Source: Draconibacterium orientale
Lineage (GTDB): Bacteria; Bacteroidota; Bacteroidia; Bacteroidales; UBA1556
Assembly (NCBI GenBank): GCA_022736595.1
Contig: DZDC01000002.1
Span: forward strand, 13,620-47,818
DNA: 34,199 nt
Direction: 5' to 3'
The notes under the pieces are model-generated. The model searched no databases, was not told where the DNA came from, and saw only the letters and a program-made list of their open reading frames with translations. This document shows, piece by piece, positions 3,326 through 24,038 of the stretch. Made by a program: the position numbers and the translations under genes. Position 1 is the stretch's first letter. Each line of letters begins with the position of its first letter.

Positions 3326-5431
3326 CTATTTTAATTCAGTTACAACTTCAACACTTTCTAATAAATAGGGGTCGGCTTTCAGCTTTTTATGCCATTCATT
3401 GGCCGATTTCACTTTTGCAGTATCCGAGGCAATAAATTCCATGTCAATTTTAAGAGGAGACACCATTAATAAGGTAGTGTCGGTGAAAAGATTTTTATAC
3501 AAGTCATTCTCTTGTTTTCGTTTCGCCATTTCGGCTCGGTATTGCGTTAAGTTTAAGCTTACAAGGGTTTGATCTTGGTACTTTTTTACTGACTTAGCTT
3601 GTTGCTCAAGAAGACTAAAGGTATTGTTGCTCTTAATTCTTTTGGTGCTTTTAGTCACAATATCCTTCTTTTTTTGTATTGAGTTAGTCGGTTGGTATTG
3701 GGTGGTGTTGATTTTATCCCAGTCTAAATGATGATCGAGTTCGGCTTCACCATATTTTATGTATTTGTACTGATCAGGTAAGATAATATCTGGTACCACA
3801 CCTTTGAGCTGGGTGCTTTCCCCTGTAATTCTATAAAACTTTTGGAAGGTAAGTTTCAATGCTCCAAAGGGTTTGTAAGTGTTGTAATTTCCATTTACAA
3901 TTTCATCTAAATCAATAAAACGTTGAACTGTTCCCTTTCCAAAGGATTTTTGACCACCAATAATGACGGCTCTTCCATAATCTTGGAGAGCACCAGCAAA
4001 AATTTCTGAGGCTGATGCACTGTTTGAATTTACCATTACGGCCATGGGACCGTCATAAAGAACTGAAGGATCATTATCGCTTAAGATTTCGGGAGCTCCT
4101 GTTTTTTGTCGCACTTGTACGATTGGGCCAGTGGGTATAAACAAGCCTGCCATGGTAACCACGTCGGGGAGGCTACCCCCTCCATCGTTTCTAAGATCGA
4201 TAATGAGACCGTCGATACCCTGATTTTTTAACTTGATTACTTCTTTTCTTACATCATCTGAGCACCTACGTCCCCCTCCTTTTTCATTAAAGTTGACATA
4301 GAATGAAGGCAAATAGATGTATCCAATGTTTTTATTGGAGCTGGGGCTTTTTATAATGGCTGATTTAGCATAAGTTTCTTCAATTACCACGATATCCCGT
4401 ACAATGCTGATTTGCTTAATATCACCTTCCACGGTTTTCACTGTGAGTTTAACAGTAGTTCCTTTTTTACCACGGATATAGGTTACCGCTTTGTCAATAC
4501 GCATCCCCGATATTTCAACGGTTTCACCATTTTCTTGAGTAACTTTTAAAATTAAGTCGCCCGCTTTTAATTCACCTTGTTTATAAGAAGGGCTTCCTGG
4601 CATGATTTGAACCACTTTAATAAAGCCGTCTTTTTCTTGCAAGGTAGCTCCAATTCCTTCTAATTGCCCGCTCATGGCAATGTCAAAATCTTCTTTGTCC
4701 TTTGGAGGAAAATAGTTGGTGTGAGGATCAAAGCAAGCGCTGACTGAGTTAAGATACAAGGAAAAAAAGTCTTTTCTTTCCATTTGAGATAATCGATGAA
4801 GATAATCTTGATTGCGTTTCTTAACTTTTTCGCGGGCTTCCTTTTCAATAGTTGTGAAGTCTTTAATTGCGATAGATGTATCCTTTTTTTCAGCAGCAGC
4901 TTCTTGAATTTCGAGCTGAGTTACCATTTCAAGCATCACTTGATATTTTAGCGATTTACGCCACGAATCTTTAAGCTCGTCCTTGCTTTTAGCAAAACTG
5001 TTTTTCTTATCATCCAACTCGAGTTCGTCGTTAAGGTCAAATTGAAAGGGTTCACTTAAAATATTTTCATAAAGTGCTTCTACTTCGCTGATGCGTTTGG
5101 TGAGAATACTGTATGATAAGTCAAAAAAGTCGAGATTGAGTGCATTGAGTTGGTCATCCAACTGGAGACGGTAAGCTTTCAACTGAGTATAATCTGATTC
5201 AAGTAGAAATTTTTTGGTATAATCAATGCCTTCGATATAGGAATCGAATACTTTTTCCGAAAATTGATCATCCACTGGAATATTGTCATAATGGGCATAT
5301 TTTAGTCCACTCATTAAAAGTTCAAGGACAATTTTCTCCTTATCTTTTTGGTCTTCAGTATAGGTTTTGTAAGCGGCTATTAATGCAATTGGCAAAAGTA
5401 ACGCCACAACTTTGATGATAATGCTTCTCAT
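3326..5431 (-). CDS. Carboxy-terminal processing (tail-specific) protease, S41 family with PDZ domain
   Basis: 701 aa; N-terminal TM/signal; PDZ 'GIGATLQEKDGFIKVVQIMPGSPSYKQGELKAGDLILKV'; catalytic 'VNSNSASASEIFAGALQDYGRAVIIGGQKSFGKGTVQ' Ser/Lys dyad; Prc-like C-terminal region. Confidence 0.93.
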   Translation of the reverse strand: MRSIIIKVVALLLPIALIAAYKTYTEDQKDKEKIVLELLMSGLKYAHYDNIPVDDQFSEKVFDSYIEGIDYTKKFLLESDYTQLKAYRLQLDDQLNALNLDFFDLSYSILTKRISEVEALYENILSEPFQFDLNDELELDDKKNSFAKSKDELKDSWRKSLKYQVMLEMVTQLEIQEAAAEKKDTSIAIKDFTTIEKEAREKVKKRNQDYLHRLSQMERKDFFSLYLNSVSACFDPHTNYFPPKDKEDFDIAMSGQLEGIGATLQEKDGFIKVVQIMPGSPSYKQGELKAGDLILKVTQENGETVEISGMRIDKAVTYIRGKKGTTVKLTVKTVEGDIKQISIVRDIVVIEETYAKSAIIKSPSSNKNIGYIYLPSFYVNFNEKGGGRRCSDDVRKEVIKLKNQGIDGLIIDLRNDGGGSLPDVVTMAGLFIPTGPIVQVRQKTGAPEILSDNDPSVLYDGPMAVMVNSNSASASEIFAGALQDYGRAVIIGGQKSFGKGTVQRFIDLDEIVNGNYNTYKPFGALKLTFQKFYRITGESTQLKGVVPDIILPDQYKYIKYGEAELDHHLDWDKINTTQYQPTNSIQKKKDIVTKSTKRIKSNNTFSLLEQQAKSVKKYQDQTLVSLNLTQYRAEMAKRKQENDLYKNLFTDTTLLMVSPLKIDMEFIASDTAKVKSANEWHKKLKADPYLLESVEVVTELK

Positions 5432-5725: not shown

Positions 5726-5755
5726 TTTGTAAAATAAAAATAATGTTTATCTTTG
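5726..5755 (+). promoter_or_regulatory. Bacteroidetes-type promoter for candidate ncRNA/leader (-33 TTTG 5726-5729, -7 TATCTTTG 5748-5755)
   Basis: 'gaTTTGtaaaataaaaataatgttTATCTTTGcagcc'; consensus TTTG-N18-TAnnTTTG; expected TSS about 5761. Confidence 0.7.
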
Positions 5756-5760
5756 CAGCC

Positions 5761-5905
5761 GCTTTTTATGGTAGCGAATCGTAAGATTAAGTACTATTAA
5801 AGCGAGTAAGATAAATTGTAAGGAACCTGATAAGGACAGACCGGTATAGGTTCCAAAAAAGTGAGAGTATCACTTTTGGGTCTGAATTAAGTGTCCTTCC
5901 TTCCA
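5761..5905 (+). ncRNA. Candidate structured RNA (small RNA or 5' leader) with pseudoknot
   Basis: Starts at the predicted TSS. Hairpin 5761-5803: GCTTT/AAAGC, ATGGTA/TACTAT, AATC-GTAA-GATT. Hairpin 5822-5854: GGAACCT/AGGTTCC. Hairpin 5857-5877: AAAAGTGA-GAGTA-TCACTTTT. Loop CAGACC 5837-5842 pairs with GGTCTG 5879-5884 (pseudoknot). Alternative AAGGACA 5832-5838 with TGTCCTT 5892-5898. No significant ORF. Confidence 0.5.
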
Positions 5906-5984
5906 ATTTTTCATACAAATCTTAATGTCAATAGTTCAAATAAGACAATTTAGTCAATTTAAATATTTGAATTTTAGTGTTTTA

Positions 5985-6014: not shown

Positions 6015-6044
6015 TTGATAATTAAGTTCTTAATTGTACTTTTG
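6015..6044 (+). promoter_or_regulatory. Bacteroidetes-type promoter for rpsL operon (-33 TTG 6015-6017, -7 TACTTTTG 6037-6044)
   Basis: 'gTTGataattaagttcttaattgTACTTTTGcaaac', spacer 19 bp, about 57 bp upstream of the rpsL ATG. Confidence 0.7.
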
Positions 6045-6101: not shown

Positions 6102-6542
6102 ATGCCAACAATACAACAATTAATTAGAAAAGGTCGCAAGAAGTTGACTGATAAAAGTAAAGCTCCCGCATTGGATTCATGTCCACAGCGTCGTGGAGTT
6201 TGTGTGCGTGTATATACCACTACCCCCAAGAAACCAAACTCAGCAATGCGTAAGGTAGCTCGTGTACGTTTAACCAATCAAAAGGAAGTGAATGCCTATA
6301 TTCCTGGTGAAGGACACAATTTGCAAGAGCACTCCATCGTGTTAATTAGAGGAGGAAGAGTGAAAGACCTTCCTGGAGTACGTTACCACATCGTTCGTGG
6401 TGCACTCGATACCTTAGGTGTTGAAGGTCGTACTCAACGTAGATCAAAATACGGTACCAAGCGTCCTAAAAAAGGTGCTCTAGCTAAAGGTGCTCCAGCT
6501 AAGGGCGCTCCAGCAAAAGGTGCTCCATCAAAGAAGAAATAG
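6102..6542 (+). CDS. rpsL: 30S ribosomal protein S12, with C-terminal KGAPA repeat extension
   Basis: [15 protein letters not shown]...[19 protein letters not shown]...[12 protein letters not shown]. Confidence 0.98.
6471..6530 (+). repeat. 4 x 15-bp in-frame tandem repeat (AAAGGTGCTCCAGCT) encoding [20 protein letters not shown] at the S12 C-terminus
   Basis: Units 6471-6485, 6486-6500, 6501-6515, 6516-6530 differ by only a few bases. Confidence 0.9.
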
Positions 6543-6570
6543 CATTATACATTATAAATAAGGTGTAACA

Positions 6571-7041
6571 ATGAGAAAACAAAAGCCTAAAAAACGAATT
6601 ATTTTACCAGATCCAAAATTCAATGATGTTTTGGTTACCAAATTCGTAAACAATATGATGTACGAAGGCAAGAAAAATATTTCATATAATATTTTTTATG
6701 ATGCCATGGAAATTGTACAACAAAAATTAAAAGAGGAAAACGCTCTTGAAGTGTTCAAAAAAGGACTTTCAAACGTTACCCCTTCAGTAGAGGTAAAAAG
6801 TAGAAGAATTGGAGGAGCAACCTTCCAAATTCCTACCGAAATTTATCCTGCACGTAAACAATCCATCGGTATCAAAGCTCTTATCGCTGCGTCACGTAAC
6901 CGTCATGAGAAATCAATGGCTCAGAAATTAGCTGGTGAAATCATAGCCGCTTTTAAAGAAGAAGGTACCGCATACAAGAAGAAAGAAGATACTCACCGTA
7001 TGGCCGATGCTAATAAAGCATTCTCCCATTTTCGTTTCTAA
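6571..7041 (+). CDS. rpsG: 30S ribosomal protein S7
   Basis: 156 aa, S7 signature 'MRKQKPKKR...[14 protein letters not shown]'. Confidence 0.98.
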
Positions 7042-7062
7042 ATAATTCATTGCAAAAAGTTT

Positions 7063-9144
7063 ATGTCAAATAGCTTACTACATACAAGAAACATTGGTAT
7101 TATGGCGCACATCGATGCTGGTAAAACTACCACCACCGAGCGTATTCTGTACTATACTGGCAAAAGCCATAAAATTGGTGAAGTGCATGACGGTGCTGCT
7201 ACTATGGACTGGATGGTTCAGGAGCAAGAACGTGGTATCACCATTACTTCTGCTGCTACTACTGTATTTTGGAAACATAACAACATTGAAAATAAAATTA
7301 ACATCATTGATACTCCCGGACACGTTGACTTCACCGTTGAAGTAGAACGTTCTCTTCGTATCCTTGATGGTGCTGTAGCACTTTTTTGTGCCGTTGGTGG
7401 GGTGGAACCTCAATCCGAAACCGTATGGCGTCAAGCTACAAAATATAAAGTTCCTCGTTTGAGCTTCATTAATAAAATGGACCGTTCTGGAGCCGATTTT
7501 TATTCTGTAGTAAATCAAATTAAAGAACGTCTAAAAGCCAATCCTGTTCCACTTCAAATTCCAATTGGAAGTGAAGAGCATTTTAAAGGGGTTGTGGATC
7601 TCATTCGTAATAAAGCTTTCGTTTGGGATGAAACAGATCAAGGAGTAAATGTATCCGAAATTCCTATTCCTGCTGATTTAATCGAAACCGCTGAAAAGTA
7701 CCGTATGGCTCTCATTGAAGGTGTGGCTGAAGAAAGCGATCACCTTCTTGAAAAGTTTATGGATGATCCCAATTCAATTACTGAAGAGGAAATGCTTTAC
7801 CATATTCGTAAAGCTACTGTCGAAATGCGGATAACTCCAGTAATGTGTGGTTCTGCATTTAAAAATAAAGGGGTTCAAATGCTACTTAATGCCGTTATCG
7901 ACTTCTTACCAAGTCCGCTCGACATTGAAGCTGTAGAAGGAGTTAATCCTGATACAGGTGAAACTGAACTTCGTCATGTGAAATCTGATGCTCCATTTGC
8001 AGCTTTAGCTTTCAAAATCGCAACCGATCCTTTCGTAGGACGTATTGCATTCTTCCGAGTTTACTCAGGTAGTCTCGACGCTGGAAGTTATGTACTTAAT
8101 ACCGGTACAGGTAAAAAAGAACGTATCAGCCGAATCATGCAAATGCATGCCAATAAGCAAAATCCATTGGACCGTATCGAAGCAGGAGACATTGGAGCTG
8201 CTGTGGGTTTTAAAACCATTCGTACTGGTGATACTCTTTGTGTTGAGGATTTCCCAATAGTTCTTGAATCAATGGATTTCCCAAATCCTGTAATCAGTAT
8301 TGCCATTGAGCCTAAAACTCAAAAGGATTCTGATAAATTAGGTAACTCCCTAGCAAAACTAGCTGAAGAAGATCCTACTTTCAAAGTTCATACTGATGAA
8401 GATAGTGGACAAACCATTATCAGCGGTATGGGAGAATTGCACTTAGAAATTTTGATAGACCGTCTTCAACGCGAGTTCAAAGTAGAGTGTAACCAAGGAC
8501 AACCTCAGGTAGCTTATAAAGAAGCATTATTGTCAAGCACCGAACACAGAGAAGTTTACAAGAAACAATCGGGGGGTCGTGGTAAATATGCCGATATCCA
8601 GTTTGAAATTGGACCTGCTGATAGTGGAGTTGAAGGCCTTCAGTTTATCGATGAAATCAAGGGTGGTGTTATTCCAAAAGAATTTGTCCCCAGCATCGAG
8701 AAAGGTTTCAAAGAAGCAATGAAAAATGGTACCCTAGCTGGTTTCGAGTTAGATAACCTTAAAGTACGCTTGTTTTATGGCGGATATCATGCAGTGGATT
8801 CAGACCAATTGTCATTTGAATTGGCAGCAAAAGTAGGTTTCAAAGACGCATGTCGTAAACTTAACCGTTGTCTGCTTGAGCCTGTCATGAAGGTAGAAGC
8901 AGTTACCCCAGACGATTATATGGGAGATATCATCGGAGACTTAAACAAACGCCGTGGAATGGTTGAAGGAGTTACAGCTAAAGATGGTATTCAAACTATC
9001 AAAGCCATGGTTCCGCTAAGCAATATGTTTGGTTATGTTACCAGCTTACGCACCATCAGTTCTGGACGTGCTACATCAACCATGGAATTCCACCATTACG
9101 CACAAGTTCCACAAAACATTGCAGACGAAATTATAAAGAAATAA
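7063..9144 (+). CDS. fusA: Elongation factor G
   Basis: 693 aa; '[19 protein letters not shown]', 'DTPGHVDF', 'NKMD'. Confidence 0.98.
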
Positions 9145-9162
9145 ATGCATATTTAAACGCAT

Positions 9163-9468
9163 ATGAGTCAGAAAATTAGAATTAAATTAAAATCATTCGA
9201 TTACAATCTGGTGGATAAATCCGCAGAGAAAATCGTTAAGACTGTAAAATCAACAGGTGCAGTGGTAAACGGACCTATTCCGCTTCCAACCGACAAAAAG
9301 ATCTATACAGTATTGCGTTCAACATTCGTAAACAAGAAAGCACGCGAGCAATTTGAGCACTCTACTTACAAACGTCTTTTAGATATTTACAGCACCACTT
9401 CAAAAACCATTGACGCTCTAATGAAATTAGAATTGCCTAGTGGTGTAGAAGTAGAAATTAAAGTGTAA
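9163..9468 (+). CDS. rpsJ: 30S ribosomal protein S10
   Basis: 101 aa '[22 protein letters not shown]...GPIPLPT'. Confidence 0.98.
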
Positions 9469-9490
9469 CTGAAAATTAAGTCAATTAGAA

Positions 9491-10114
9491 ATGTCAGGAA
9501 TAATAGGAAAAAAAATCGGCATGACTAGCCTTTTCGATGCCTCTGGTAAAAATATACCATGCACAGTAATCGAAGCTGGTCCTTGTGTAGTAACACAAGT
9601 TAGAACCATGGAAATAGATGGTTATGAGGCTATTCAACTTGCTTTTGACGAAGCAAAAGAAAAGCACACCACCAAAGCCATGATGGGTCATTTCAAAAAA
9701 GCAAATACTACTCCTAAACGTGCTTTAGCCGAGTTTACTCGTTTTGAAGTGCGCAGAGCCTTCGGTGATGTAGTTACCGTGGATGTATTTAGCGAAGGAG
9801 AATATGTTGACGTATCAGGAAATACCAAAGGAAAAGGATTCCAAGGTGTGGTAAAACGTCACGGTTTTAGTGGTGTAGGTGGAGCAACCCATGGTCAGCA
9901 CAATCGTTTGCGTGCCCCTGGTTCATTGGGAGCAAGCTCATGGCCTTCACGCGTATTCAAAGGAATGCGTATGGCTGGTCGTACCGGTGGCAACTCCGTG
10001 AAAATGATCAACCTTGAAGTGTTAAAAGTTGTACCAGAAAAGAATCTACTTATTGTTAAGGGATCAATTCCAGGTGCTATTAATTCATACGTAAAAGTAG
10101 AGAGATGGAGCTAG
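9491..10114 (+). CDS. rplC: 50S ribosomal protein L3
   Basis: 207 aa '[10 protein letters not shown]...[13 protein letters not shown]'; overlaps rplD by 10 bp. Confidence 0.98.
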
Positions 10115-10734
10115 TAGTATATAAAACCACAGGAGAAGAATCGGGTCGCAAAGTTGTTCTTAACGAACAAATTTTTGGAATCGAGCCCAATGATCACGCT
10201 ATTTACCTCGATGTAAAATTGCTTCAAGCCAATAAACGTCAAGGAACTCATAGTGCTAAGGAACGTAATGCAGTTTCAGGAAGTACCCGTAAGCTGAAAA
10301 GACAAAAGGGAACTGGTGGAGCTCGTTCTGGTGATATTAAGAGTCCATTATTGCGAGGTGGAGGAAGAGTATTTGGACCACGTCCGCGCAACTACTCTTT
10401 TAAGTTAAATAAGAAAGTTCGCAAGATTGCCCGTCTGTCGGCACTTACTTACAAAGCCAAAGAAAATGGCATTTTGATAGTAGAAGACTTCAACATGGCA
10501 ACTCCTAAAACCAAACTGTTTAATCAAATTCTTACCAACCTTAAGGTTAATGAAATCAGAACTTTATTGGTATTACCTATAGTAGATCAAAATATGTATC
10601 TAAGCTCACGCAACTTGTTCAGAAGTAGCATTGCCACAGCAAAGGATATCAATACTTACGATTTGCTTCACGCCAATAAATTGATCATCACCGAAAGTGG
10701 AATCAAAGAAATTGAAAAATTATTCAACGAATAG
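10105..10734 (+). CDS. rplD: 50S ribosomal protein L4
   Basis: 209 aa '[11 protein letters not shown]...[27 protein letters not shown]'. Confidence 0.98.
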
Positions 10735-10768
10735 ATCGATTTAGTTTAATTCATAAACATTAGTAAAG

Positions 10769-11059
10769 ATGAATATTTTAGAAAGGCCCATCATTTCAGA
10801 AAAGATGAACCAGTTAAGCGAGAAGTTTCAGCGCTATGGATTCATTGTAAATAAGAAGGCCAACAAGATTCAGATTAGAAAGGCAGTTGAAGAACTTTAC
10901 AATGTTGAAGTTGTGGCTGTAAACACCATGAATTATAGTGGTAAAAGTAAGACCCGTGGTACTAAATCGGGTTTTATTTCCGGTAGCACCGGTGCTTTCA
11001 AAAAAGCAGTTATCACCTTAGCAGATGGTCAAAGTATTGATTTTTATAGTAATATCTAG
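10769..11059 (+). CDS. rplW: 50S ribosomal protein L23
   Basis: 96 aa 'RPIISEKM...YGFIVNKKANKIQIRKAVEELY'. Confidence 0.96.
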   Translation: MNILERPIISEKMNQLSEKFQRYGFIVNKKANKIQIRKAVEELYNVEVVAVNTMNYSGKSKTRGTKSGFISGSTGAFKKAVITLADGQSIDFYSNI

Positions 11060-11071
11060 TAGAAGATAGAG

Positions 11072-11896
11072 ATGGCTTTAAAGAAATTCAAACCAACAAC
11101 CTCCAGTCAACGCTTCAAAATTGTAAGCGCATTTGACGACATCACAACCGCAACACCTGAAAAGAGTTTGTTGGCTCCAGTCAAAAATTCAGGTGGTCGC
11201 GACAATAAAGGTAAAATGACCATGCGCTACATTGGTGGCGGTCATAAAAAGCAATACCGTATCATCGACTTTAAACGTGAGAAGGACGGAGTTCCTGCAA
11301 CCGTTAAAAGTATTGAGTACGATCCAAATCGTACCGCACGTATCGCATTGCTATTTTATGCAGATGGTGAAAAACGTTATATTGTAGCACCCAAAGGCTT
11401 GCAAGTTGGCAAAACCTTAATGTCAGGTCCAGGAAGCGCACCAGAAGTTGGTAATACACTTTTGCTGAGCGAGATTCCATTCGGTACCATCATTCACAAC
11501 ATTGAGTTGCGTCCCGGTCAAGGAGCTAAAATGGCTCGTAGCGCTGGAAGTTACGCACAATTGATGTCGCGAGACGGAAAGTTTGCCATCATCAAATTGC
11601 CTTCAGGCGAAACCCGAATGATACTTCAAAGCTGCCGCGCAACCGTAGGTATGGTGAGTAACCCTGACCATAACTTGGAAGTGAGTGGAAAAGCAGGTCG
11701 TACTCGTTGGATGGGTCGTCGTCCTCGTGTAAATGCTGTACGTATGAATCCTGTCGATCACCCCATGGGTGGAGGAGAAGGACGTTCTACGGGAGGTCAC
11801 CCAAGATCACGTAAAGGCACTCCAGCTAAAGGTTATCGTACCCGTAGCAAGAAAAACCTTTCGGATAAGTATATAGTTGAAAGAAAGAAGAAGTAA
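11072..11896 (+). CDS. rplB: 50S ribosomal protein L2
   Basis: 274 aa '[22 protein letters not shown]...[17 protein letters not shown]'. Confidence 0.98.
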
Positions 11897-11913
11897 TTTA
11901 ATAGCCTAAGAAT

Positions 11914-12192
11914 ATGAGTCGTTCGCTTAAAAAAGGTCCATTTATACACTACAAACTAGACCGTAAGGTATTGGCCGCTCAAGAGTCAGGAAAAAAATCC
12001 ACCATCAAAACATGGTCGAGAGCATCAATGATCTCTCCCGATTTTGTTGGATTAACATTAGCAGTTCATAATGGAAATAAATTTATTCCAGTGTATGTAA
12101 CTGAAAATATGGTAGGTCACAAGTTAGGTGAGTTTTCGCCCACCCGTACATTCCGTGGCCATGCTGGTAGTAAAAATAAAGGCAAGAAATAA
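11914..12192 (+). CDS. rpsS: 30S ribosomal protein S19
   Basis: 92 aa '[11 protein letters not shown]...[17 protein letters not shown]'. Confidence 0.98.
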
Positions 12193-12203
12193 ATTCTAAA
12201 GTC

Positions 12204-12626
12204 ATGGGAGTTAGAAAACGTAAAAGCGCTGAAGTACGCAAAGAGAATAACAAAAGCACCTATTTTGCTAGGTTAAATGATGTTCCAACTTCACCACGCA
12301 AGATGAGACTTGTGGCCGACTTAGTTCGTAACGTAAATGTTGAACAAGCGTTGGCTATTCTGAAACATTCACCAAAAGAAGCTTCAGATCGCTTATATAA
12401 ATTATTGTTAAGTGCTATAAGTAATTGGCAAGCCAAAAACCAAGGTGCCCGAATGGAAGAAGCTCACTTATTTGTAAGTGAAGTATTCGTAGATAGCGGT
12501 CGTCAGCTGAAACGTATCCGTACTGCCCCACAAGGTCGTGCCAATCGTATCCGCAAGCGCTCTAACCACATTACCTTGTTTCTTAACAGTAGAGTAGAGC
12601 TTAACACCGAAATTACAAACAATTAA
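12204..12626 (+). CDS. rplV: 50S ribosomal protein L22
   Basis: 140 aa; position and '[13 protein letters not shown]...[21 protein letters not shown]'. Confidence 0.97.
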
Positions 12627-12636
12627 TTAGTCGAAA

Positions 12637-13368
12637 ATGGGTCAAAAAGCAAATCCAATAGGTTTACGATTAGGAATCACTCGTGGTTGGGATTCTAACT
12701 GGTTTGGTGGAAAAAGTTTCGAAACAAAAATCGTAGAAGACGATAAAATTCGTAAGTATTTGAAAGCACGTCTAGCAAAAGCTAGCGTTTCAAAAATAAA
12801 TATCGAAAGAACTCTTAAGTTAATCACTGTTACCATCAATACCGCCCGTCCTGGAATCATTATTGGTAAACAAGGTACCGAAGTAGATAAACTCAAAGAA
12901 GAGCTTAAAAAAATTACTGGTAAAGAAATACAAATCAATATCCTTGAGATAAAGAGACCGGAACTCGATGCTTACTTGGTAGGCCAATCCGTGGCTCAAC
13001 AAATTGAAGGTCGTGTTTCATACCGTAGAGCAATTAAAATGGCTATAGCAAGCAGTATGCGAATTGGCGCCGAAGGTATCAAAGTTATGATATCAGGTCG
13101 AATTGGTGGCGCTGAAATGGCTCGTAGTGAAATGTACAAAGAAGGTCGTATTCCGTTACATACCCTTCGCGCCGATATCGATTATGCATTGGTTGAAGCA
13201 CATACCACTTACGGATTGCTTGGAGTTAAAGTGTGGATTTTTAAAGGTGAAGTTTATGGCAAACGCGACTTTAGCGTTTACGAGTCAGCAGCCGTTAATG
13301 CTAATGATGCCAACCGTAAAAACACCAATCAACGCAATAAGAAGAATCCACGCAAAAGAACTCGATAA
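12637..13368 (+). CDS. rpsC: 30S ribosomal protein S3
   Basis: 243 aa '[14 protein letters not shown]...[14 protein letters not shown]'. Confidence 0.98.
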
Positions 13369-13402
13369 CCCAATATTAACGAACCTCTAAAATTTTGTAA
13401 TA

Positions 13403-13822
13403 ATGTTACAGCCAAAGAGAACAAAGTTCAGAAAACAAATGAAGGGAAGAATGAAAGGAAACGTGTCTCGCGGGGCAATGTTATCTTTCGGTTCTTTTGG
13501 AATAAAATCCCTTGAAGAAACCTGGATTACCGGACGTCAAATTGAAGCTGCTCGTCAAGCAGTTACCCGTTACATGAAACGTGAAGGGCAAATTTGGATT
13601 CGCCTATTCCCCGACAAACCTATCACCAAAAAGCCTGCAGAGGTACGTATGGGTAAAGGAAAAGGTGCACCTGAAGGATTTGTTGCCCGATGCAAACCTG
13701 GTAAAATCTTATTTGAAGCCGAAGGAGTATCCTTGGAAGTGGCTAAAGAAGCAATGCGCTTAGCAGCCCAAAAACTTCCAGTGAAGACTAAATTTATCGT
13801 ACGAAACGATTACTCTGAATAG
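13403..13822 (+). CDS. rplP: 50S ribosomal protein L16
   Basis: 139 aa '[19 protein letters not shown]...'. Confidence 0.98.
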
Positions 13823-13855
13823 TCGGGTTAACCTTTAAAATCTAAGAATCAAACC

Positions 13856-14059
13856 ATGAAAAAAGAAGTAATTAAAGATTTATCCACCGACGATCTTAAA
13901 GATCGTTTAAGTGAAGAGCAGTTGTTTTTGACCAAAACCAAATTGCATCATGCAGTTAGTCAAATCGAAAACCCTCAAGTCATCAAAAATACCCGCAAAA
14001 GTATTGCTCGTATTAATACTGAATTGAGAAAACGTGAATTAGAAGCTGCTAGTAAATAA
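13856..14059 (+). CDS. rpmC: 50S ribosomal protein L29
   Basis: 67 aa; canonical position between rplP and rpsQ; '[24 protein letters not shown]'. Confidence 0.95.
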
Positions 14060-14076
14060 TGTTAATCCGAACCAAG

Positions 14077-14337
14077 ATGGAAGAAAGCAGAAACTTAAGA
14101 AAAGAACGTATAGGTGTTGTAGTTAGCAACAAGATGGATAAAACCATCTCCGTTAACATAGAACGTAAAGTTAAACATCCTATGTACGGAAAATTCGTAA
14201 AGAGATCCAAAAAATATTTGGCTCATGACGAACTAAACACTTGCGGCATTGGTGATACCGTGCGTATCATGGAAACTCGTCCGCTTAGTAAAAACAAATG
14301 TTGGAGATTAGTCGAAATCATTGAAAGAGCTAAATAA
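14077..14337 (+). CDS. rpsQ: 30S ribosomal protein S17 (start reassigned to ATG 14077; the track's 14059 start adds MLIRTK)
   Basis: '[26 protein letters not shown]' matches the usual Bacteroidetes S17 N-terminus; the 14059 ATG overlaps the rpmC stop. Confidence 0.9.
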
Positions 14338-14339
14338 TT

Positions 14340-14708
14340 ATGTTACAACAAGAATCAAGAGCAATAGTAGCCGATAATAGCGGCGCCAGAGAAGTACTCG
14401 TTATTCGAGTGCTTGGAGGAACAAAACGTCGTTACGCTCGCATAGGCGACAAAGTAGTAGTGACCATAAAAAATGCTATCCCCAGTGGTAACGTTAAAAA
14501 AGGTACAGTAGCAAAAGCAGTGGTTGTTCGCTCCAAAAAAGAAATCCGCCGCAACGATGGATCCTACATCCGTTTCGATGATAACGCTGTAGTATTGTTA
14601 AATGGAGCAGGTGAAATGATGGGTACCCGCATTTTTGGTCCCGTTGCCCGTGAACTTCGTGAAAAGAAGTTTATGAAAATAGTTTCATTAGCACCCGAAG
14701 TATTGTAG
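14340..14708 (+). CDS. rplN: 50S ribosomal protein L14
   Basis: 122 aa '[27 protein letters not shown]'. Confidence 0.98.
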
Positions 14709-14734
14709 GTATAACTCGCAAGAATTGAAGTAAA

Positions 14735-15052
14735 ATGAATGCAAAATTAAAACTCAAAAAAAACGATATCGTAAAAGTTATCGCTGGTCAAGACAAAGGC
14801 AAAGATGGTAAGATCCTCGAGATCATTACTGAGAAAAACAAAGCCTTAGTCGAAGGTGTTAACATGGTATCCAAGCATACTAAGCCTAGTGCTAAGCACC
14901 CTCAAGGCGGTATCATTCAGAAAGAAGCCCCCATCCACATCTCAAATCTTATGTTTGTTGATGCTAAAGGTAAAGCTACACGCGTAGGCCGTAAAGAGGT
15001 TGATGGAAAAATTGTTCGTTACTCTAAAAAATCAGAGGAGGTAATTAAATAA
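14735..15052 (+). CDS. rplX: 50S ribosomal protein L24
   Basis: 105 aa KOW '[21 protein letters not shown]'. Confidence 0.97.
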
Positions 15053-15606
15053 TGAATTATACACCAAGTCTTAAAGTAAAATATTCCGACGAAATTGTTC
15101 CAGCTTTAATGCAACAATTTAATTATAAGTCGATAATGGAAGTTCCTCGCTTAATGAAGATTTCTATTAACCAAGGCGTAGGTAATGCCATTAGCGATAA
15201 AAAAATGCTTGACCTCACCGTTGAAGAACTTTCTAATATCGCTGGTCAAAGAGCCGTTAAAACATTGTCAAAAAAGGACATCTCAAACTTCAAACTTCGT
15301 AAAGGTGTGGGCATTGGTGCTCGTGTAACCCTTCGTCGCGAAAGAATGTACGAATTCCTTGAAAGACTCGTAAATGTTTCTTTGCCCCGCGTACGTGACT
15401 TTAGAGGTATCAATAATAAAGGTTTCGACGGTAAAGGAAATTACAACCTCGGTATCAAAGAACAATTGATCTTCCCCGAAATTGTAATGGATAAAGTAAC
15501 TCGTATCCAAGGTATGAACATCACCTTCGTAACCACTGCTAAAACAGACGCCGAAGCATACGCATTGTTGAAAGAATTTGGATTACCATTTAAAACTGAT
15601 AAATAA
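15052..15606 (+). CDS. rplE: 50S ribosomal protein L5
   Basis: 184 aa; TAATG overlap with rplX; '[14 protein letters not shown]...[25 protein letters not shown]'. Confidence 0.98.
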
Positions 15607-15875
15607 TGGCTAAAGAATCAATGAAAGCGCGCGAGCGCAAAAGAGAAAAAATGGTAGCTAAATATGCCAAGAAAAGAGCTGCCCTTAAAGAGGCTAACGA
15701 TGTGGAAGGTTTACAAAAACTTCCAAAAAATGCTAGCCCAGTGCGTTTGCATAACCGTTGCCAACTTTCAGGTCGTCCAAGAGGGTATATGCGCCAATTT
15801 GGAATCAGCCGTATCAACTTCCGCGAAATGGCGCTCGCAGGCCTTATCCCTGGAGTTAAGAAAGCAAGCTGGTAA
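15606..15875 (+). CDS. rpsN: 30S ribosomal protein S14 (zinc-independent, long form)
   Basis: 89 aa '[17 protein letters not shown]...[21 protein letters not shown]'; CxxC motifs absent. Confidence 0.98.
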
Positions 15876-15907
15876 ATATTAAATATTAATTTTTAAAATA
15901 CAATAAG

Positions 15908-16306
15908 ATGGTAACCGATCAAATAGCAGATTATTTGACTAGAATTAGAAATGCAGTAGCTGCAAAACATAAAGTAGTCGAAGTGCCTTCTTCAAACATG
16001 AAAAAAGAAATAACCAAAATTCTCTACAATAAAGGTTATATTCTTAGTTACAAGTTTGTTGATGAGGGCGTTAGTAAAACAATCAAAATTGCACTTAAGT
16101 ATCATCCCGAAACTAAAGCCTCAGCAATTCAATCCTTGGAACGTATTAGTAAACCTGGTTTACGTAAATATGCCAATTCAAAAAGCATTCCTAGAGTAAT
16201 CAATGGTCTAGGTATCGCAATTCTGTCAACTTCAAGCGGTATTATTACCGATAAAGAAGCTCGTCAATTGAATGTAGGTGGGGAAGTTATTTGTTATGTA
16301 AGCTAA
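15908..16306 (+). CDS. rpsH: 30S ribosomal protein S8
   Basis: 132 aa 'DQIADYLTRIRNA...STSSGIITDKEARQLNVGGEVICYV'. Confidence 0.98.
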   Translation: MVTDQIADYLTRIRNAVAAKHKVVEVPSSNMKKEITKILYNKGYILSYKFVDEGVSKTIKIALKYHPETKASAIQSLERISKPGLRKYANSKSIPRVINGLGIAILSTSSGIITDKEARQLNVGGEVICYVS

Positions 16307-16325
16307 TTTTCAAAAAAGATAACGT

Positions 16326-16883
16326 ATGTCAAGAATAGGAAAAATGCCCATCGCTATACCTGCTGGTGTAGAGATCAACATCAACATCAATAGCATTGTT
16401 GTTAAAGGAAAATTAGGAACGCTTACTCAAGCATTTGATCATAATGCAGTTGAAGTTAAAGTTGAAAACAACCAAATATTAGTACAACGGTTTAATGATT
16501 CAAAAGATGCTCGCTCTAAACATGGTCTTTATCGTGCTTTAATCAATAACATGGTTAAAGGTGTTTCCGAAGGATTTAAATCAGTACAGGAATTAGTTGG
16601 GGTAGGTTACCGTGCCGTAACTCAAGAGCAAGTTCTAGATTTGTCTCTTGGTCAATCTCACCACATCTATTTTCAAATTCCTGCTGAAGTGAAGGTTGAA
16701 ACCATTTCTGAAAAAGGTAAAAACCCACTCGTAGTACTTACCACTGCCGATAAGCAATTGTTAGGTCAAATCAGTTCAAAAATCAGATCATTACGCAAAC
16801 CTGAACCATACAAAGGTAAAGGGGTTCGTTACCAAAATGAGGTTGTACGTAGAAAAGCTGGTAAATCAGCTGGTAAAAAATAA
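16326..16883 (+). CDS. rplF: 50S ribosomal protein L6
   Basis: 185 aa 'MSRIGKMPIAIPAGV...EPYKGKGVRYQNEVVRRKAGKS'. Confidence 0.98.
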   Translation: MSRIGKMPIAIPAGVEINININSIVVKGKLGTLTQAFDHNAVEVKVENNQILVQRFNDSKDARSKHGLYRALINNMVKGVSEGFKSVQELVGVGYRAVTQEQVLDLSLGQSHHIYFQIPAEVKVETISEKGKNPLVVLTTADKQLLGQISSKIRSLRKPEPYKGKGVRYQNEVVRRKAGKSAGKK

Positions 16884-16901
16884 TATTATAAATAAAGCAC
16901 G

Positions 16902-17258
16902 ATGAAAGATACAAAATTATTTCACAGATCTCGGATTAGACGCCGTGTTCGCGCCAAAATATCAGGAACTCCTGAACGTCCAAGATTGAGTGTTTTTAGA
17001 AGCAATAAACAAATTTATGCACAGATTATCGACGACGCAGCAGGTCGCACCATTGCAGCTGCTTCTTCAATCGATAAAGAAGTAGCTTCTAAAAAAGTTA
17101 ACAAAATAGAACAAGCCAAGTTAGTAGGTGCACTTTTAGCCGATCGCGCTAAAGAAGCCGAAGTAGAAACTGTGGTCTTCGACCGCGGAGGTTATATCTA
17201 CCACGGACGTGTTAAGTCATTGGCTGATGGAGCTAGAGAAGGTGGTCTTAATTTTTAA
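16902..17258 (+). CDS. rplR: 50S ribosomal protein L18
   Basis: 118 aa '[33 protein letters not shown]'. Confidence 0.98.
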
Positions 17259-17273
17259 AACAACGGAAAAGGT

Positions 17274-17783
17274 ATGAACGATAATAAAATCAAATCAAGC
17301 GAAATTGAATTTAAAGATCGCCTTGTAAGCATCCAAAGAGTTACCAAAGTAACCAAAGGAGGAAGAACATTTAGCTTTTCAGCAATTGTGGTTGTTGGAA
17401 ACGAAAATGGGGTGGTAGGTTACGGACTAGGAAAAGCCAATGAGGTGACTGCAGCTATATCAAAAGGAATTGATGATGCTAAAAAACACTTGATTCAAGT
17501 GCCTCTTAACAAAGGAACCCTGCCTCATGAGCAAACAGGAAAGTATAGCGGAGCTCGCGTTTTTATGAAACCCGCTTCTGCTGGTACTGGAGTAATTGCC
17601 GGTGGTGCAATGCGTGCCGTGCTTGAAAGCGTTGGAATAAAGGATGTGTTAGCTAAATCAAAAGGGTCTTCAAACCCTCACTCTGTGGTAAAAGCAACGA
17701 TTGACGCTCTATCCCAACTCAGAGATCCTCGCACCATCGCTAAAATGCGTGGTATTACTTTAAATAAAGTTTTTAATGGTTAA
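17274..17783 (+). CDS. rpsE: 30S ribosomal protein S5
   Basis: 169 aa '[30 protein letters not shown]'. Confidence 0.98.
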
Positions 17784-17803
17784 TTTCGGAAGCATTAATA
17801 TAG

Positions 17804-17811
17804 TATTTTTG
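17804..17811 (+). promoter_or_regulatory. Candidate internal Bacteroidetes -7 box TATTTTTG (distal spc operon promoter)
   Basis: 'aatatagTATTTTTGcacg' in the rpsE-rpmD gap, 20 bp upstream of the rpmD ATG; no clear -33 TTTG. Confidence 0.35.
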
Positions 17812-17831
17812 CACGTTTAAAATTAAGGAGA

Positions 17832-18011
17832 ATGGAAAAGCTCAGAATTAAACAAATCAAAAGCGGTATAGGCCGCCCAGAGGATCAAAAGCGTACCCTA
17901 AAAGCTTTAGGAATTAGCAAGATGCAACGTCCACGCGAAGTTGTAGTAAGCCCTCAAGTATTGGGTATGATCGAAAAAGTAAAGCATTTGCTTTCAGTAG
18001 AAGAAGTTTAG
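17832..18011 (+). CDS. rpmD: 50S ribosomal protein L30 (missing from ORF track, 59 aa)
   Basis: Direct translation MEKLRIKQIKSGIGRPEDQKRTLKALGISKMQRPREVVVSPQVLGMIEKVKHLLSVEEV*; position between rpsE and rplO. Confidence 0.96.
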   Translation: MEKLRIKQIKSGIGRPEDQKRTLKALGISKMQRPREVVVSPQVLGMIEKVKHLLSVEEV

Positions 18012-18037
18012 TATTTAATATTTTAAGTAATAAAGTA

Positions 18038-18484
18038 ATGGATTTAAGTAATCTTAAACCAGCCTCAGGCTCAGTAAAAAATCGTAAGCGCATTGGTCGC
18101 GGTCAAGGTTCTACTCGTGGTGGTACCTCTACGCGTGGACATAAAGGTCAAAAATCTCGTTCTGGCTATTCTTCAAAAGCTGGATTCGAAGGAGGTCAAA
18201 TGCCTTTGTACCGTCGCTTACCTAAGTTTGGTTTCAAAAACATCAATCGTGTCGAATATCAAGGTATAAACCTAGATGTTATACAAGCACTTTGCGATTC
18301 AAAAGGAATTTCCTTTTTCGATTTTGAAGTGTTTGTTAACAACGGTTTAGCCAGCAAGAATGATTTGGTTAAAATACTAGGACGTGGTGTCCTAAGTTCA
18401 AAAGTTGAAATCCATGCTCACGCATTTACTGCTACTGCCTTATCGGCTATCGAAAAAGTAAATGGTGTTGCAACCAAACTTTAA
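18038..18484 (+). CDS. rplO: 50S ribosomal protein L15
   Basis: 148 aa 'RIGRGQGSTRGGTSTRGHKGQKSRSG...FEGGQMPLYRRLPKFGF'. Confidence 0.98.
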   Translation: MDLSNLKPASGSVKNRKRIGRGQGSTRGGTSTRGHKGQKSRSGYSSKAGFEGGQMPLYRRLPKFGFKNINRVEYQGINLDVIQALCDSKGISFFDFEVFVNNGLASKNDLVKILGRGVLSSKVEIHAHAFTATALSAIEKVNGVATKL

Positions 18485-18490
18485 TATTTT

Positions 18491-19885
18491 ATGAAGAAAT
18501 TTATAGAAACATTAAAGAACATTTGGCATATAGAAGAGTTACGTAATCGTATCATTCTAACGTTGTCGCTTGTGATGATTTACCGTTTGGGAGCCTATGT
18601 AGTTCTTCCAGGGGTAGATCCTCGCGGTTTGGAAGCCCTCCAACAACAAGGTGAAGACGGATTGATTGGACTTATTAATATGTTTTCAGGTGGAGCTTTC
18701 TCCAATGCATCCATTTTTGCGTTGGGTATTATGCCTTATATCACTGCATCCATCGTGATTCAGCTTTTGACTATGGCAGTTCCTTACTTCCAAAAGATTC
18801 AAAAAGAAGGAGAAAGTGGTCGTAAGAAAATAAATCAAATTACCCGACTCCTAACCGTAATTATTGTGGCTTTTCAGGCTCCAGGATACATCGCTAATAT
18901 GATTAATACTCTTGGAAAATATTACCAAAGCGAGTCAGGTGCTGTTTTAGAAACCGTTCCATTATATACCGATAGCCCAACCTTTTTCTATGTTTTATCT
19001 GTAGTTATCCTTATTGCAGGTACCATGTTTATTATGTGGTTAGGTGAGCGTATTACCGATAAAGGTATTGGAAATGGTATTTCTTTAATCATTATGATTG
19101 GTATTATTGCACGTCTTCCAATGGCTCTTGTTGCTGAGTTTTCATCTAAAGTAACTCAACAAACAGGAGGGTTGGTGATGTTCCTAGCCGAAATGGTATT
19201 CCTTGTATTTGTAATATTAGTAACCATTCTTCTGGTACAAGGTACACGCCGAGTTCCAATTAATTTCGCTAAACGAATCGTTGGAAATAAACAATATGGT
19301 GGCGTACGTCAATATGTTCCTTTGAAAGTGAATGCAGCTGGTGTAATGCCTATCATCTTTGCTCAAGCAATCATGATGTTGCCCATCACTATTATTGGAT
19401 ATGCACAATCTGATAACTTAAGTTGGTTTGCCACTGCTTTTAGCGATTTTCAAGGTTTTTGGTATAACTTGGTATTTGGCCTTATGATTATTGCTTTTAC
19501 CTATTTCTATACTGCAATTACCATTAACCCTAACCAAATTGCTGAGGATCTTAAGAAAAATGGAGGCTTCATCCCTGGTGTAAAACCAGGTAAAAAGACT
19601 GCAGAGTTTTTAGATAATATCTTAAGCCGCGTAACCCTTCCTGGTTCAATTTTCCTCGCTTTTGTAGCTATCATGCCAGCTATTGTTGGTCAAGTGGGTG
19701 TAAATCAGCAATTCGCACAGTTTTTTGGAGGTACTTCATTGCTTATCCTAGTAGGAGTAGTCTTGGATACACTTCAACAAATTGAAAGTCACTTGTTGAT
19801 GCGTCATTACGATGGATTAACCAAAACAGGACGCATTAAAGGCCGCAATAGCAATATGTATGGTGTTAGTGGCGTAAATATGTAA
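18491..19885 (+). CDS. secY: Preprotein translocase subunit SecY
   Basis: 464 aa multi-TM; 'PGVDPRGLEAL', 'LGIMPYITASIVIQLL', 'ERITDKGIGNGISL'. Confidence 0.98.
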   Translation: MKKFIETLKNIWHIEELRNRIILTLSLVMIYRLGAYVVLPGVDPRGLEALQQQGEDGLIGLINMFSGGAFSNASIFALGIMPYITASIVIQLLTMAVPYFQKIQKEGESGRKKINQITRLLTVIIVAFQAPGYIANMINTLGKYYQSESGAVLETVPLYTDSPTFFYVLSVVILIAGTMFIMWLGERITDKGIGNGISLIIMIGIIARLPMALVAEFSSKVTQQTGGLVMFLAEMVFLVFVILVTILLVQGTRRVPINFAKRIVGNKQYGGVRQYVPLKVNAAGVMPIIFAQAIMMLPITIIGYAQSDNLSWFATAFSDFQGFWYNLVFGLMIIAFTYFYTAITINPNQIAEDLKKNGGFIPGVKPGKKTAEFLDNILSRVTLPGSIFLAFVAIMPAIVGQVGVNQQFAQFFGGTSLLILVGVVLDTLQQIESHLLMRHYDGLTKTGRIKGRNSNMYGVSGVNM

Positions 19886-19903
19886 TAACTTAAGTGTTTA
19901 AAC

Positions 19904-20689
19904 ATGATCGTAAAAACACTTGAAGAGATAGAATTAATTAGACAAAGTTCTTTACTTGTTGGAAAAACTCTGGCTGAAGTGGCTAAAATCATGAAGCCCG
20001 GAGTCAAAACTATTGAAATGGATCGCTTAGCCGAGACTTTTATCCGAGATCATAAAGCTGAACCCGGATTTAAAGGATACGGTGGGTTTCCCGCAACACT
20101 TTGTATCTCTATCGGAGATGAAGTGGTACATGGAATTCCGGGCGATCGCGAACTTAAAGATGGTGATTTGGTTTCGGTGGATTGTGGCACTTTACTCAAT
20201 AGCTTTTACGGCGACTATGCCTACTCCTTTGCAATAGGAGAATGCGATGATGATCTCTTGAAACTTCAACAGGTCACCAAGGAGTCGCTTTACCTAGGTG
20301 CTGAGCAGGCAATATTAGGTCGTAGAACAGGCGATATAGGCTATGCCATCCAGAGTTACGTTGAAAGTTTTGGTTACTCCGTGGTTAGAGATCTTACCGG
20401 ACATGGTATAGGTCGCAAACTTCACGAAGGTCCCGAAGTTCTCAATTATGGAAAAAGAGGAAGCGGAAAAATGCTGCCTGAAAATCTTGTGATTTGCATC
20501 GAACCCATGATTAATATGGGAGTTAAAGAAGTAACACAAGACCATGATGGATGGACTATCAGAACTAAAGACCATAAAGCCTCAGCTCATTTTGAGCACA
20601 TGGTGGTGGTTAAATCCAACAAACCTGAGTTTTTGTCGACGTATGAATTTATAGAAGAAGTATTAAAGCATAACAAAAATATTAGATAA
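19904..20689 (+). CDS. map: Methionine aminopeptidase type I
   Basis: 261 aa '[20 protein letters not shown]', '[15 protein letters not shown]'. Confidence 0.97.
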
Positions 20690-20690
20690 T

Positions 20691-20909
20691 ATGGCAAAAC
20701 AAGTATCAATCGAACAAGATGGAATCGTCCTAGAATCCTTGGGCAATGCCATGTTTCGTGTTGAGCTTGAAAATGGACATGTGTTGATTGCCCATATTTC
20801 TGGTAAAATGCGAATGCACTACATAAAAATATTGCCTGGAGATAAGGTAAGACTCGAAATCTCACCTTATGACTTGTCCAAAGGAAGAATTTCATTTAGA
20901 TACAAATAG
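20691..20909 (+). CDS. infA: Translation initiation factor IF-1
   Basis: 72 aa '[42 protein letters not shown]'. Confidence 0.97.
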
Positions 20910-20931
20910 CAAACAATAAACAACAGATAAA

Positions 20932-21048
20932 ATGAAGATTAGAGCATCTGTAAAAAAGAGAAGTGAAGATGATATCATCGTTCGTCGTAAAGGCAGAGTA
21001 TACATCATCAATAAGAAAAACCCTAAGCTGAAACAGCGTCAGGGCTAA
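20932..21048 (+). CDS. rpmJ: 50S ribosomal protein L36 (missing from ORF track, 38 aa, cysteine-free)
   Basis: Direct translation [38 protein letters not shown]; canonical infA-rpmJ-rpsM order. Confidence 0.96.
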
Positions 21049-21092
21049 TTTATAATTTAATTATTTTAACGTAACCATTTAATTAAAAGTCT

Positions 21093-21470
21093 ATGGCTAG
21101 AATCGCGGGAGTAGACATCCCAAACAACAAGAGAGGCGAAATTGCCCTGACTTATATCTTCGGAATAGGTCGTAGCACTGCAAAAACTATACTGGAAACG
21201 GTTGGAGTTGACATCAACAAGAAAGTGAACGACTGGGATGATGAAGATCAAAAGAAGATACGTGAATACATCGGAAAGAACATTACCGTTGAAGGCGAAT
21301 TACGTTCAGAAGTACAAATGAACATTAAACGTCTAATGGATATTGGATCCTATCGTGGTGTACGTCATCGTCTCGGATTACCTCTACGTGGTCAAAGCAC
21401 TAAGAACAATGCCCGTACTCGTAAAGGTAAGAAAAAGACAGTTGCTGGAAAGAAAAAGGCAACTAAATAA
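21093..21470 (+). CDS. rpsM: 30S ribosomal protein S13
   Basis: 125 aa '[26 protein letters not shown]...[17 protein letters not shown]'. Confidence 0.98.
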
Positions 21471-21515
21471 GTAGGGTAAAAAGTTTAAAGAAAAACTTAA
21501 AGTATTAGTAGCATT

Positions 21516-21914
21516 ATGGCAAAAAACGTAAAGAAAGGTAAAGTGACGAAAAAGCGCGTGGTGAAAATTGAACCACTCGGTCACGCTCATGTAAGTGCTA
21601 CCTTTAACAACATCATTGTATCGTTGACCAACACTGCCGGACAGGTAATATCATGGTCATCAGCAGGTAAAATGGGTTTTAAAGGTTCCAAGAAAAACAC
21701 CCCTTACGCAGGACAGCTCGCCGCTGAAGACTGCGCTAAAGTTGCTTTCGATTTAGGTTTACGCAAAGTGAAGGTTTTTGTTAAAGGCCCAGGAGCAGGT
21801 CGCGAATCTGCTATCCGTGCTATCAACAATTCCGGCATCGAAGTAACCGATATTATGGATCATACACCACTACCACACAATGGTTGTCGTCCTCCTAAAC
21901 GTCGTAGAGTGTAA
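21516..21914 (+). CDS. rpsK: 30S ribosomal protein S11
   Basis: 132 aa '[46 protein letters not shown]'. Confidence 0.98.
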
Positions 21915-21944
21915 GTAAAGTTTAACTAAGAAAAATAGAATAAC

Positions 21945-22550
21945 ATGGCAAGATATATTGGTCCAAAAACCAAAATCGCAAGAAAATTTAACGACCCAAT
22001 CTTCGGTGCGGATAAAAATTTTGAAAAGAAAAAATATCCTCCCGGACAACATGGCCAGTCTCGTAAAAGAAGTAAACTATCCGAATATGGTACTCAGCTT
22101 CAAGCTAAACAAAAAGCTAAGTATACTTATGGTATCCTTGAGCGCCAGTTCCGCAATTTGTTCGAATCAGCAAGTCGTCGCGAAGGAATTACCGGTGAAA
22201 ACTTACTTCGTCTTTGCGAAGCTCGTTTAGATAACACCGTTTACCGTTTAGGAATTGCTCCTACTCGCGCAGCTGCTCGTCAATTGGTTTCTCACCGTCA
22301 CATTACTGTTAATGGCGAAATGGTGAATATTCCAAGCTATAGCCTTCGCGCTGGTGAAGTGGTAAGCGTTCGTGAAAAATCGAAATCTTTAGAAGCAATC
22401 ACCCTAAGTCTATCCGGTCGTAAAATGAGTTTCCCTTGGTTAACTTGGGACGCACAAAAAATGGAAGGTACCTTTTCAAGCTACCCAGAACGTGCCGATA
22501 TCCCCGAAAACATCAATGAACAATTGATCGTTGAATTGTACTCTAAGTAA
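21945..22550 (+). CDS. rpsD: 30S ribosomal protein S4
   Basis: 201 aa '[15 protein letters not shown]...[31 protein letters not shown]'. Confidence 0.98.
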
Positions 22551-22578
22551 TTTTTTCAAATAATTAAAATCATATTAG

Positions 22579-23571
22579 ATGTCTATTATAGCATTTCAAA
22601 AACCCGATAGAGTTATCATGGTCGAGAGTGACGATTACAAAGGTATCTTTGAATTCCGTCCCCTTGAACCTGGTTACGGTATTACTGTTGGTAATGCCTT
22701 GCGTCGTATTCTCTTAAATAGCCTCGAAGGTTACGCTATTACTAGCGTTCGTATCGATGGTGTTGATCAAGAGTTTTCTTCTATCGACGGTGTTATTGAA
22801 GATGTTACCGATATCGTTCTTAACCTTAAGAAAATTCGTTTTCGACGTCAAATTGACTCCTACGAAAGCGAAAAGGTTCTGATTAGTATCAGTAATCAAG
22901 ATATGTTTACTGCTGGTGATATCAACAAGTTTCTTTCTGGATTTCAAGTTCTAAATCCTGAATTGGAAATTTGCCACATGAATACCAACGTTAAACTTAA
23001 TATCGAACTTAACATCGAAAAGGGTAGAGGTTATGTACCTGCTGAAGAAAATAAAGTAATGAACGCACCTCTAGGTACCATTTTTATCGATTCCATCTAT
23101 ACTCCCATTCGTAATGTGAAGTATAAAGTCGAAAATTATCGTGTTGAACAAAAAACCGACTACGAAAAGTTGATTATGGAAATCGATACCGATGGTTCCA
23201 TCAAACCTATCAATTCTTTAAAGGAGGCAGCTAAGATTTTAATTCAACATTTTATGTTATTTTCTGATGAGAAAATTACTCTCGATGTGGAAGAAACTCC
23301 TGTAGCAGAAGAATTTGACGAAGGTACGCTCCATATACGTCAATTATTGAAATCTCGTTTGATTGATCTTGATCTTTCTGTGAGAGCTCTTAATTGCCTT
23401 AAAGCTGCCGAAGTTGAAACTCTTGGAGAACTTGTATCTTTCAATAGAAACGACCTGTTGAAATTCAGAAATTTCGGTAAGAAATCTCTGACTGAATTAG
23501 AAGAATTGGTTAGGGCTAAAAATCTAACCTTTGGAATGAATGTAGCCAAATTTAAATTGGATAAGGAATAA
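22579..23571 (+). CDS. rpoA: DNA-directed RNA polymerase subunit alpha
   Basis: 330 aa '[32 protein letters not shown]' and alpha-CTD '[22 protein letters not shown]'. Confidence 0.98.
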
Positions 23572-23576
23572 TAGCG

Positions 23577-24038
23577 ATGAGACATAACAAAAAATTTAAC
23601 CACCTAGGAAGAACAGCTTCGCATAGAAGCGCCATGTTGTCAAATATGGCTACTTCTTTGATTATACATAAACGTATAAAAACTACTGTAGCTAAAGCCA
23701 AAGCGCTTAGAATCTACATCGAACCCATAATCACCCGTTCAAAAGCCGATACTACTCACTCACGTCGTATGGTTTTTCGTAAGTTACAAAGCAAAGATGC
23801 TGTAAGCGAACTGTTTCGTGATATCTCTGCTAAAATAATGGATCGTCCTGGTGGTTATACTCGCATTTTAAAAATTGGTAATCGTCTTGGTGATAATGCA
23901 GAAATGTGTATTATCGAATTGGTGGATTACAATACCAATATGATTGGTAAAGCACCTAAAGCCGCTAAAACCACTCGTAGAAGATCAACAAAAAAAGTAA
24001 AAACTGCCACCGAAACTACTGAGGCAGCTGCTGAATAA
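23577..24038 (+). CDS. rplQ: 50S ribosomal protein L17
   Basis: 153 aa '[29 protein letters not shown]'. Confidence 0.98.

Follow-up and report, generated by a model that had tools for sequence, protein, structure and literature searches.

A pseudoknotted RNA found upstream of rpsL in some Bacteroidales is a candidate leader of the str-S10-spc ribosomal-protein operon

What is the RNA that appears to be encoded between prc and rpsL in Draconibacterium orientale? In the 34,199-nt stretch of DNA analysed here (the window), prc lies on the opposite strand (3326-5431) and rpsL heads a long run of ribosomal-protein genes. A preliminary description had proposed a structured, pseudoknotted RNA upstream of rpsL, unlike the common structured RNAs, and had offered two identities for it, an independent sRNA or a long leader at the 5' end of the str/S10 transcript. 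Homology, covariation and the lack of an Rfam match bear out the structured RNA. Of the two identities, the leader is favoured by the comparative data and the separate sRNA is generally not, although in the window itself a separate transcript may still be made. With moderate confidence, the element is taken to act in cis, as the leader RNA of the str-S10-spc ribosomal-protein operon in a subset of the Bacteroidales.

The genes downstream, named from translations of their open reading frames, form a single block that begins with rpsL at 6102 and continues through rpsG, fusA, the S10 and spc genes, secY, map, rpsM, rpsK, rpsD and rpoA to rplQ, with eno following after 24038. The block corresponds to fused str, S10, spc and alpha clusters (about 18 kb and about 30 genes) and is probably the regulated operon (Table 1). 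It includes rpoA, and no tuf lies between fusA and rpsJ. The S12 protein of the window carries a lysine-rich C-terminal tail with repeated AKGAP units (6465-6539), and most homologues align to its first ~124 residues only. No tRNA or tmRNA was detected in the window, and the Rfam search found no S4 leader ahead of rpsD there. The upstream neighbour of the element varies among same-genus homologues, and is a tRNA gene in two genomes.

The promoter, the 5' hairpin with its GNRA tetraloop, the two downstream stems and the loop pseudoknot of the preliminary description are all present in the window as it gave them. Comparative data extend the candidate leader to ~5911, with stem P1 closing the domain and the loop making another pairing, PKb. 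The promoter closer to rpsL is a further addition. In the resulting layout P1 closes P2, and the 17-20-nt loop of P2 pairs downstream in both PKa and PKb around a variable hairpin, P3, the length and sequence of which differ among homologues. G5822 and G5823 can pair in either P1 or P2, and only three bases separate P2 from PKb in the window. The 145-nt segment is more stable than its shuffles, folding at -36.6 kcal/mol versus -27.4 +/- 3.4 (z -2.7; 1 of 200 as good). The 5' hairpin keeps its position and folding, but not its sequence, in many homologues (its z is -3.4 in the window and averages -1.8 across 77 homologues), and a hairpin occupies this position in each of the nine same-genus homologues.

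Table 1. Features of the candidate leader RNA and its locus, in window coordinates.
Feature	Coordinates	Strand	Details
Bacteroidetes-type promoter	5726..5755	+	-33 TTTG 5726-5729, N18, -7 TATCTTTG 5748-5755
5' hairpin with GNRA loop GTAA, near predicted transcription start	5761..5803	+	GCTTT 5761-5765/AAAGC 5799-5803, ATGGTA/TACTAT, AATC-GTAA-GATT
Conserved core, used for model R2	5813..5856	+	alignment A4; GRAACCUGAYAAR-NNN-ARAC-NGN-UAUAGGUUYC
P1, 5' strand	5814..5823	+	5814-5818 and 5820-5823; U5819 mismatched
P2, 5' strand GGAACCU	5822..5828	+	99.6% paired cells over 33 sequences
PKb, 5' strand, in P2 loop	5832..5836	+	AAGGA; family motif GAYAARNN
PKa, 5' strand, in P2 loop	5837..5842	+	CAGACC; pseudoknot named in the preliminary description
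P2, 3' strand AGGUUCC	5848..5854	+	pairs with GGAACCU 5822-5828
P3, variable hairpin AAAAGTGA/TCACTTTT	5857..5877	+	two covarying pairs within genus
PKa, 3' strand GGUCUG	5879..5884	+	genus covariation, swap test
PKb, 3' strand UCCUU	5894..5898	+	genus covariation, swap test
P1, 3' strand	5899..5908	+	5899-5902, 5904-5908; then three more U to 5911
Second promoter, rpsL-proximal	6015..6044	+	TTG 6015-6017, N19, TACTTTTG 6037-6044
Probable regulated operon rpsL-rpsG-fusA-rpsJ ... rpsD-rpoA-rplQ	6102..24038	+	reading of open reading frames

Same-genus homologues of the element were found by DNA search, upstream of rpsL. A covariance model built from six of them (R1) had matches in 33 of 247 order genomes, and rpsL adjoins the element in 28 of the 30 best loci. 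A second model (R2), restricted to the 44-nt core, was run in a blind whole-genome search and matched 79 of 394 Bacteroidales genomes (E<=1e-3, 29 family labels), a lower bound given the strict filters in whole-genome scoring. The window is scored at 59.6 bits and is the sole match in its whole genome. With R2, rpsL lies immediately downstream in 30/30 best loci and in 40/40 further loci, that is, in all 70 examined. Named contigs that carry the element include Lentimicrobium sp. and several Bacteroidales MAGs, and the rpsL loci of Bacteroides, Parabacteroides, Tannerella, Prevotella and flavobacteria gave no match to it. None of ~280 genomes of other orders in the class was matched by R2 at E<=0.01, the class sample yielding only the window itself, and 13 weak matches at the phylum level were rejected as homologues, none of them being near rpsL. 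From these covariance-model searches inside and outside the order, the candidate element is order-restricted, normally single-copy per genome and strictly linked to rpsL.

Two loci, L028 and L053 (probably one contig in two collections), have a divergent element in the expected place before rpsL that scores 19 bits with R2 and retains a PKb-like helix (GAUGAAGU/ACUUCAU), and the family may reach beyond what the models detect. In an order relative, locus L008 (G020:C64:13461-13858) matches the promoter region of the window (query 1-49) at five or more sites close together, which resemble a repeated promoter array.

The structure is kept in the relatives, with compensatory changes in its stems. 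P2 is paired in nearly all cells of the alignment (Table 1) and varies little, but in two of its pairs both partners have changed. Genus-level covariation is seen in P1, P3, PKa and PKb. Since the partners of the loop lie at variable distances, the loop pairings were assessed by cross-species swapping, in which, after removal of near-duplicates, the loop segment of each species was matched either to the region downstream of it in that species or to the corresponding region of another. Own pairing beats swapped pairing for PKa (z 4.9), PKb (z 5.2) and P1 (z -5.8, as energy), and in no case did any of 20,000 swaps do as well; the test removes shared ancestry only in part, and shuffled downstream regions are weaker still than swaps. 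The pseudoknot of the preliminary description is PKa, which occurs with several pair types at variable positions (CAGACC/GGUCUG, AAGACA/UGUCUU, GAGACU/AGUCUC, CAAACC/GGUUUG). For PKb, long pairings number 14 of 61, versus 3.0 +/- 1.6 when swapped, and compensated helices include GAUAAAUG/CAUUUAUC, GAUAAAGG/CCUUUAUC, GACAAGGU/ACCUUGU and GAGAAGA/UCUUCUC. P2 and PKb may form together or alternate. Because a P2-free fold of PKa, PKb and P1 scores better in the window than P1+P2+P3 (-20.4 versus -14.0 kcal/mol, energies that leave out pseudoknots), the two folds can compete.

No relevant match to Rfam 15 (4227 families) was found for the window or for 29 homologue loci, at gathering or permissive thresholds. 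6S-Flavo, Flavo-1 and Bacteroidales-1, which are likewise structured RNAs of Bacteroidetes, did not match the element, and neither they nor other Rfam families reached the gathering threshold in the window or its homologues. The element is accepted as a new candidate leader of the ribosomal-protein type.

Mimicry of rRNA is frequent but not required in ribosomal-protein leaders, many of which lack it. The core ACCUGAUAAAGUG, which we take to resemble helix 41 of E. coli 16S rRNA, was considered as such a mimic and rejected, as Bacteroidales 16S differs there and neither the model nor local alignment did better than chance. In 23S rRNA the best matches are a palindromic GAAACC..GGUUUC stem, at E 0.28 or worse, and this candidate was also rejected. 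Nothing above chance was found on the sense strands of 16S and 23S; the assembly of the window's own genome contains no 16S. The missing resemblance neither supports a ribosomal-protein ligand nor excludes one.

For Bacteroidia, the survey of Eckert and Weinberg (2020, PMC7247131) lists ribosomal-protein leaders for L13 and for S4. Like the element, these are lineage-restricted 5' leaders of ribosomal-protein operons in the same class, and the S4 leaders are likewise without rRNA mimicry, but they belong to different operons, and the table of that study has no S12/S7 (str) leader for Bacteroidia. A search by term through the main texts of two other surveys, from 2010 and 2024, likewise yielded no such str leader. 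The rpsL motif of Candidatus Pelagibacter is also a structured RNA in the rpsL 5' UTR at the head of a fused str-S10-spc operon, and its ligand is undecided among many ribosomal proteins (PMC2704228). By that description it has a bulged P1 and a three-stem junction and is found only in Pelagibacter and marine samples, whereas the element here is a Bacteroidales pseudoknot with P2, a two-part pseudoknot and P3 instead of the junction; identity of the two was therefore rejected.

The promoter pattern ahead of the element recurs in 71 of 77 homologues, where 5.1 are expected from dinucleotide shuffles. A second promoter before rpsL is found in 45 of the 77, including the window (4.8 expected), and would give transcripts without the element, which argues against a leader. 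In the other 32, where the distance from element to ATG is mostly shorter, no second pattern lies between the element and rpsL, although the strict pattern may miss some; in these homologues the only promoter pattern is upstream of the element, which must then belong to the rpsL mRNA unless there is another promoter. The leader is favoured over an independent sRNA because the element always adjoins rpsL, about 40% of homologues have no intervening promoter pattern, and there is no general terminator.

An independent trans-acting sRNA of ~150 nt, ending at P1 and a short U-run and leaving rpsL to its own promoter, is unlikely. It would have a promoter of its own, the separate rpsL promoter of the window and 44 other homologues agrees with it, and so does the short U-run that ends P1 in several same-genus homologues. 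However, a free gene would be expected to move, yet every examined match is upstream of rpsL, and the 32 homologues without a second promoter pattern are not accounted for. Nor is there evidence of its own terminator before the next gene: the terminator scan gave no terminator-like site in the window, and a T-run of at least four at the P1 end is present in only 13 of 57 homologues, so that P1 as an intrinsic terminator is not supported. In the window, local termination may occur at the P1 end, where there is a short U-run (5907-5911), and a separate short transcript may be made, since rpsL has its second promoter there.

It is rather unlikely that the element, instead of being a simple protein-binding leader, serves the Bacteroidales ribosomal-protein superoperon specifically as a conformational switch or for antitermination. 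In that reading the P2 loop would be exchanged between the pseudoknot (P2+PKa) and an extended helix (PKa+PKb), setting polymerase read-through into the ~30 ribosomal genes. A processive antitermination or RNA-polymerase-modifying element, like put or EAR RNAs, for crossing the operon is improbable. The element lies after the promoter and before the first gene of an operon of exceptional length, and this position, its normally single copy and its compact, highly conserved fold would suit such a role, but transcripts from the rpsL-proximal promoter would lack it in 45 genomes, and other operons of the same genomes are without it.

Protein feedback is the usual control of ribosomal-protein genes, and the element is found only upstream of such genes, which makes it quite improbable that it is a metabolite- or signal-sensing riboswitch controlling ribosome production, with its loop alternating between the P2 pseudoknot and the extended PKa/PKb helix. 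The nearly invariant core with covarying flanks would fit a riboswitch, as would the better score of the P2-free fold, but that score takes no account of pseudoknot formation. Conservation at the DNA level only, or chance in an A+T-rich noncoding region where fortuitous stems are common, is very improbable given the compensatory pairing in P1, PKa and PKb, which no swap equalled, the strict synteny and strand, and the conserved promoter.

The leader is probably under autogenous control, bound by a product of its own operon. Transcription from the conserved promoter would yield a transcript with the 5' hairpin and the predicted compact domain of P1, P2, PKa, PKb and P3. A ribosomal protein of the operon in excess over rRNA would then bind the nearly invariant P2/pseudoknot core and stabilise the fold, reducing read-through or translation of rpsL and its coupled genes, in a feedback loop resembling those of other ribosomal-protein leaders. 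Where the rpsL-proximal promoter is present, as in the window, it would provide an unregulated basal supply. S7 is the first candidate for the ligand, as a prior only, because it regulates the str operon in E. coli, and the ligand may instead be L4, S8 or S12. The E. coli precedent concerns the same operon and makes S7 the likeliest ligand, but there S7 binds the rpsL-rpsG intercistronic region and not a leader (PMC10931766), whereas the element here is in leader position and no 16S resemblance is detected.

In the role proposed here, the element probably lets the cell tune the amount of its ribosomal proteins. The Bacteroidota are a phylum without Shine-Dalgarno-led initiation, and to our knowledge the balancing of ribosomal-protein synthesis in them has received little study. 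A recent review notes with regret that other phyla have not been examined for control of str by S7 (PMC10931766). If the proposal is true, the element would be a concrete, testable point at which one of the cell's largest operons is controlled, and would add a covariance model and a new leader fold of the ribosomal-protein type to the known set.
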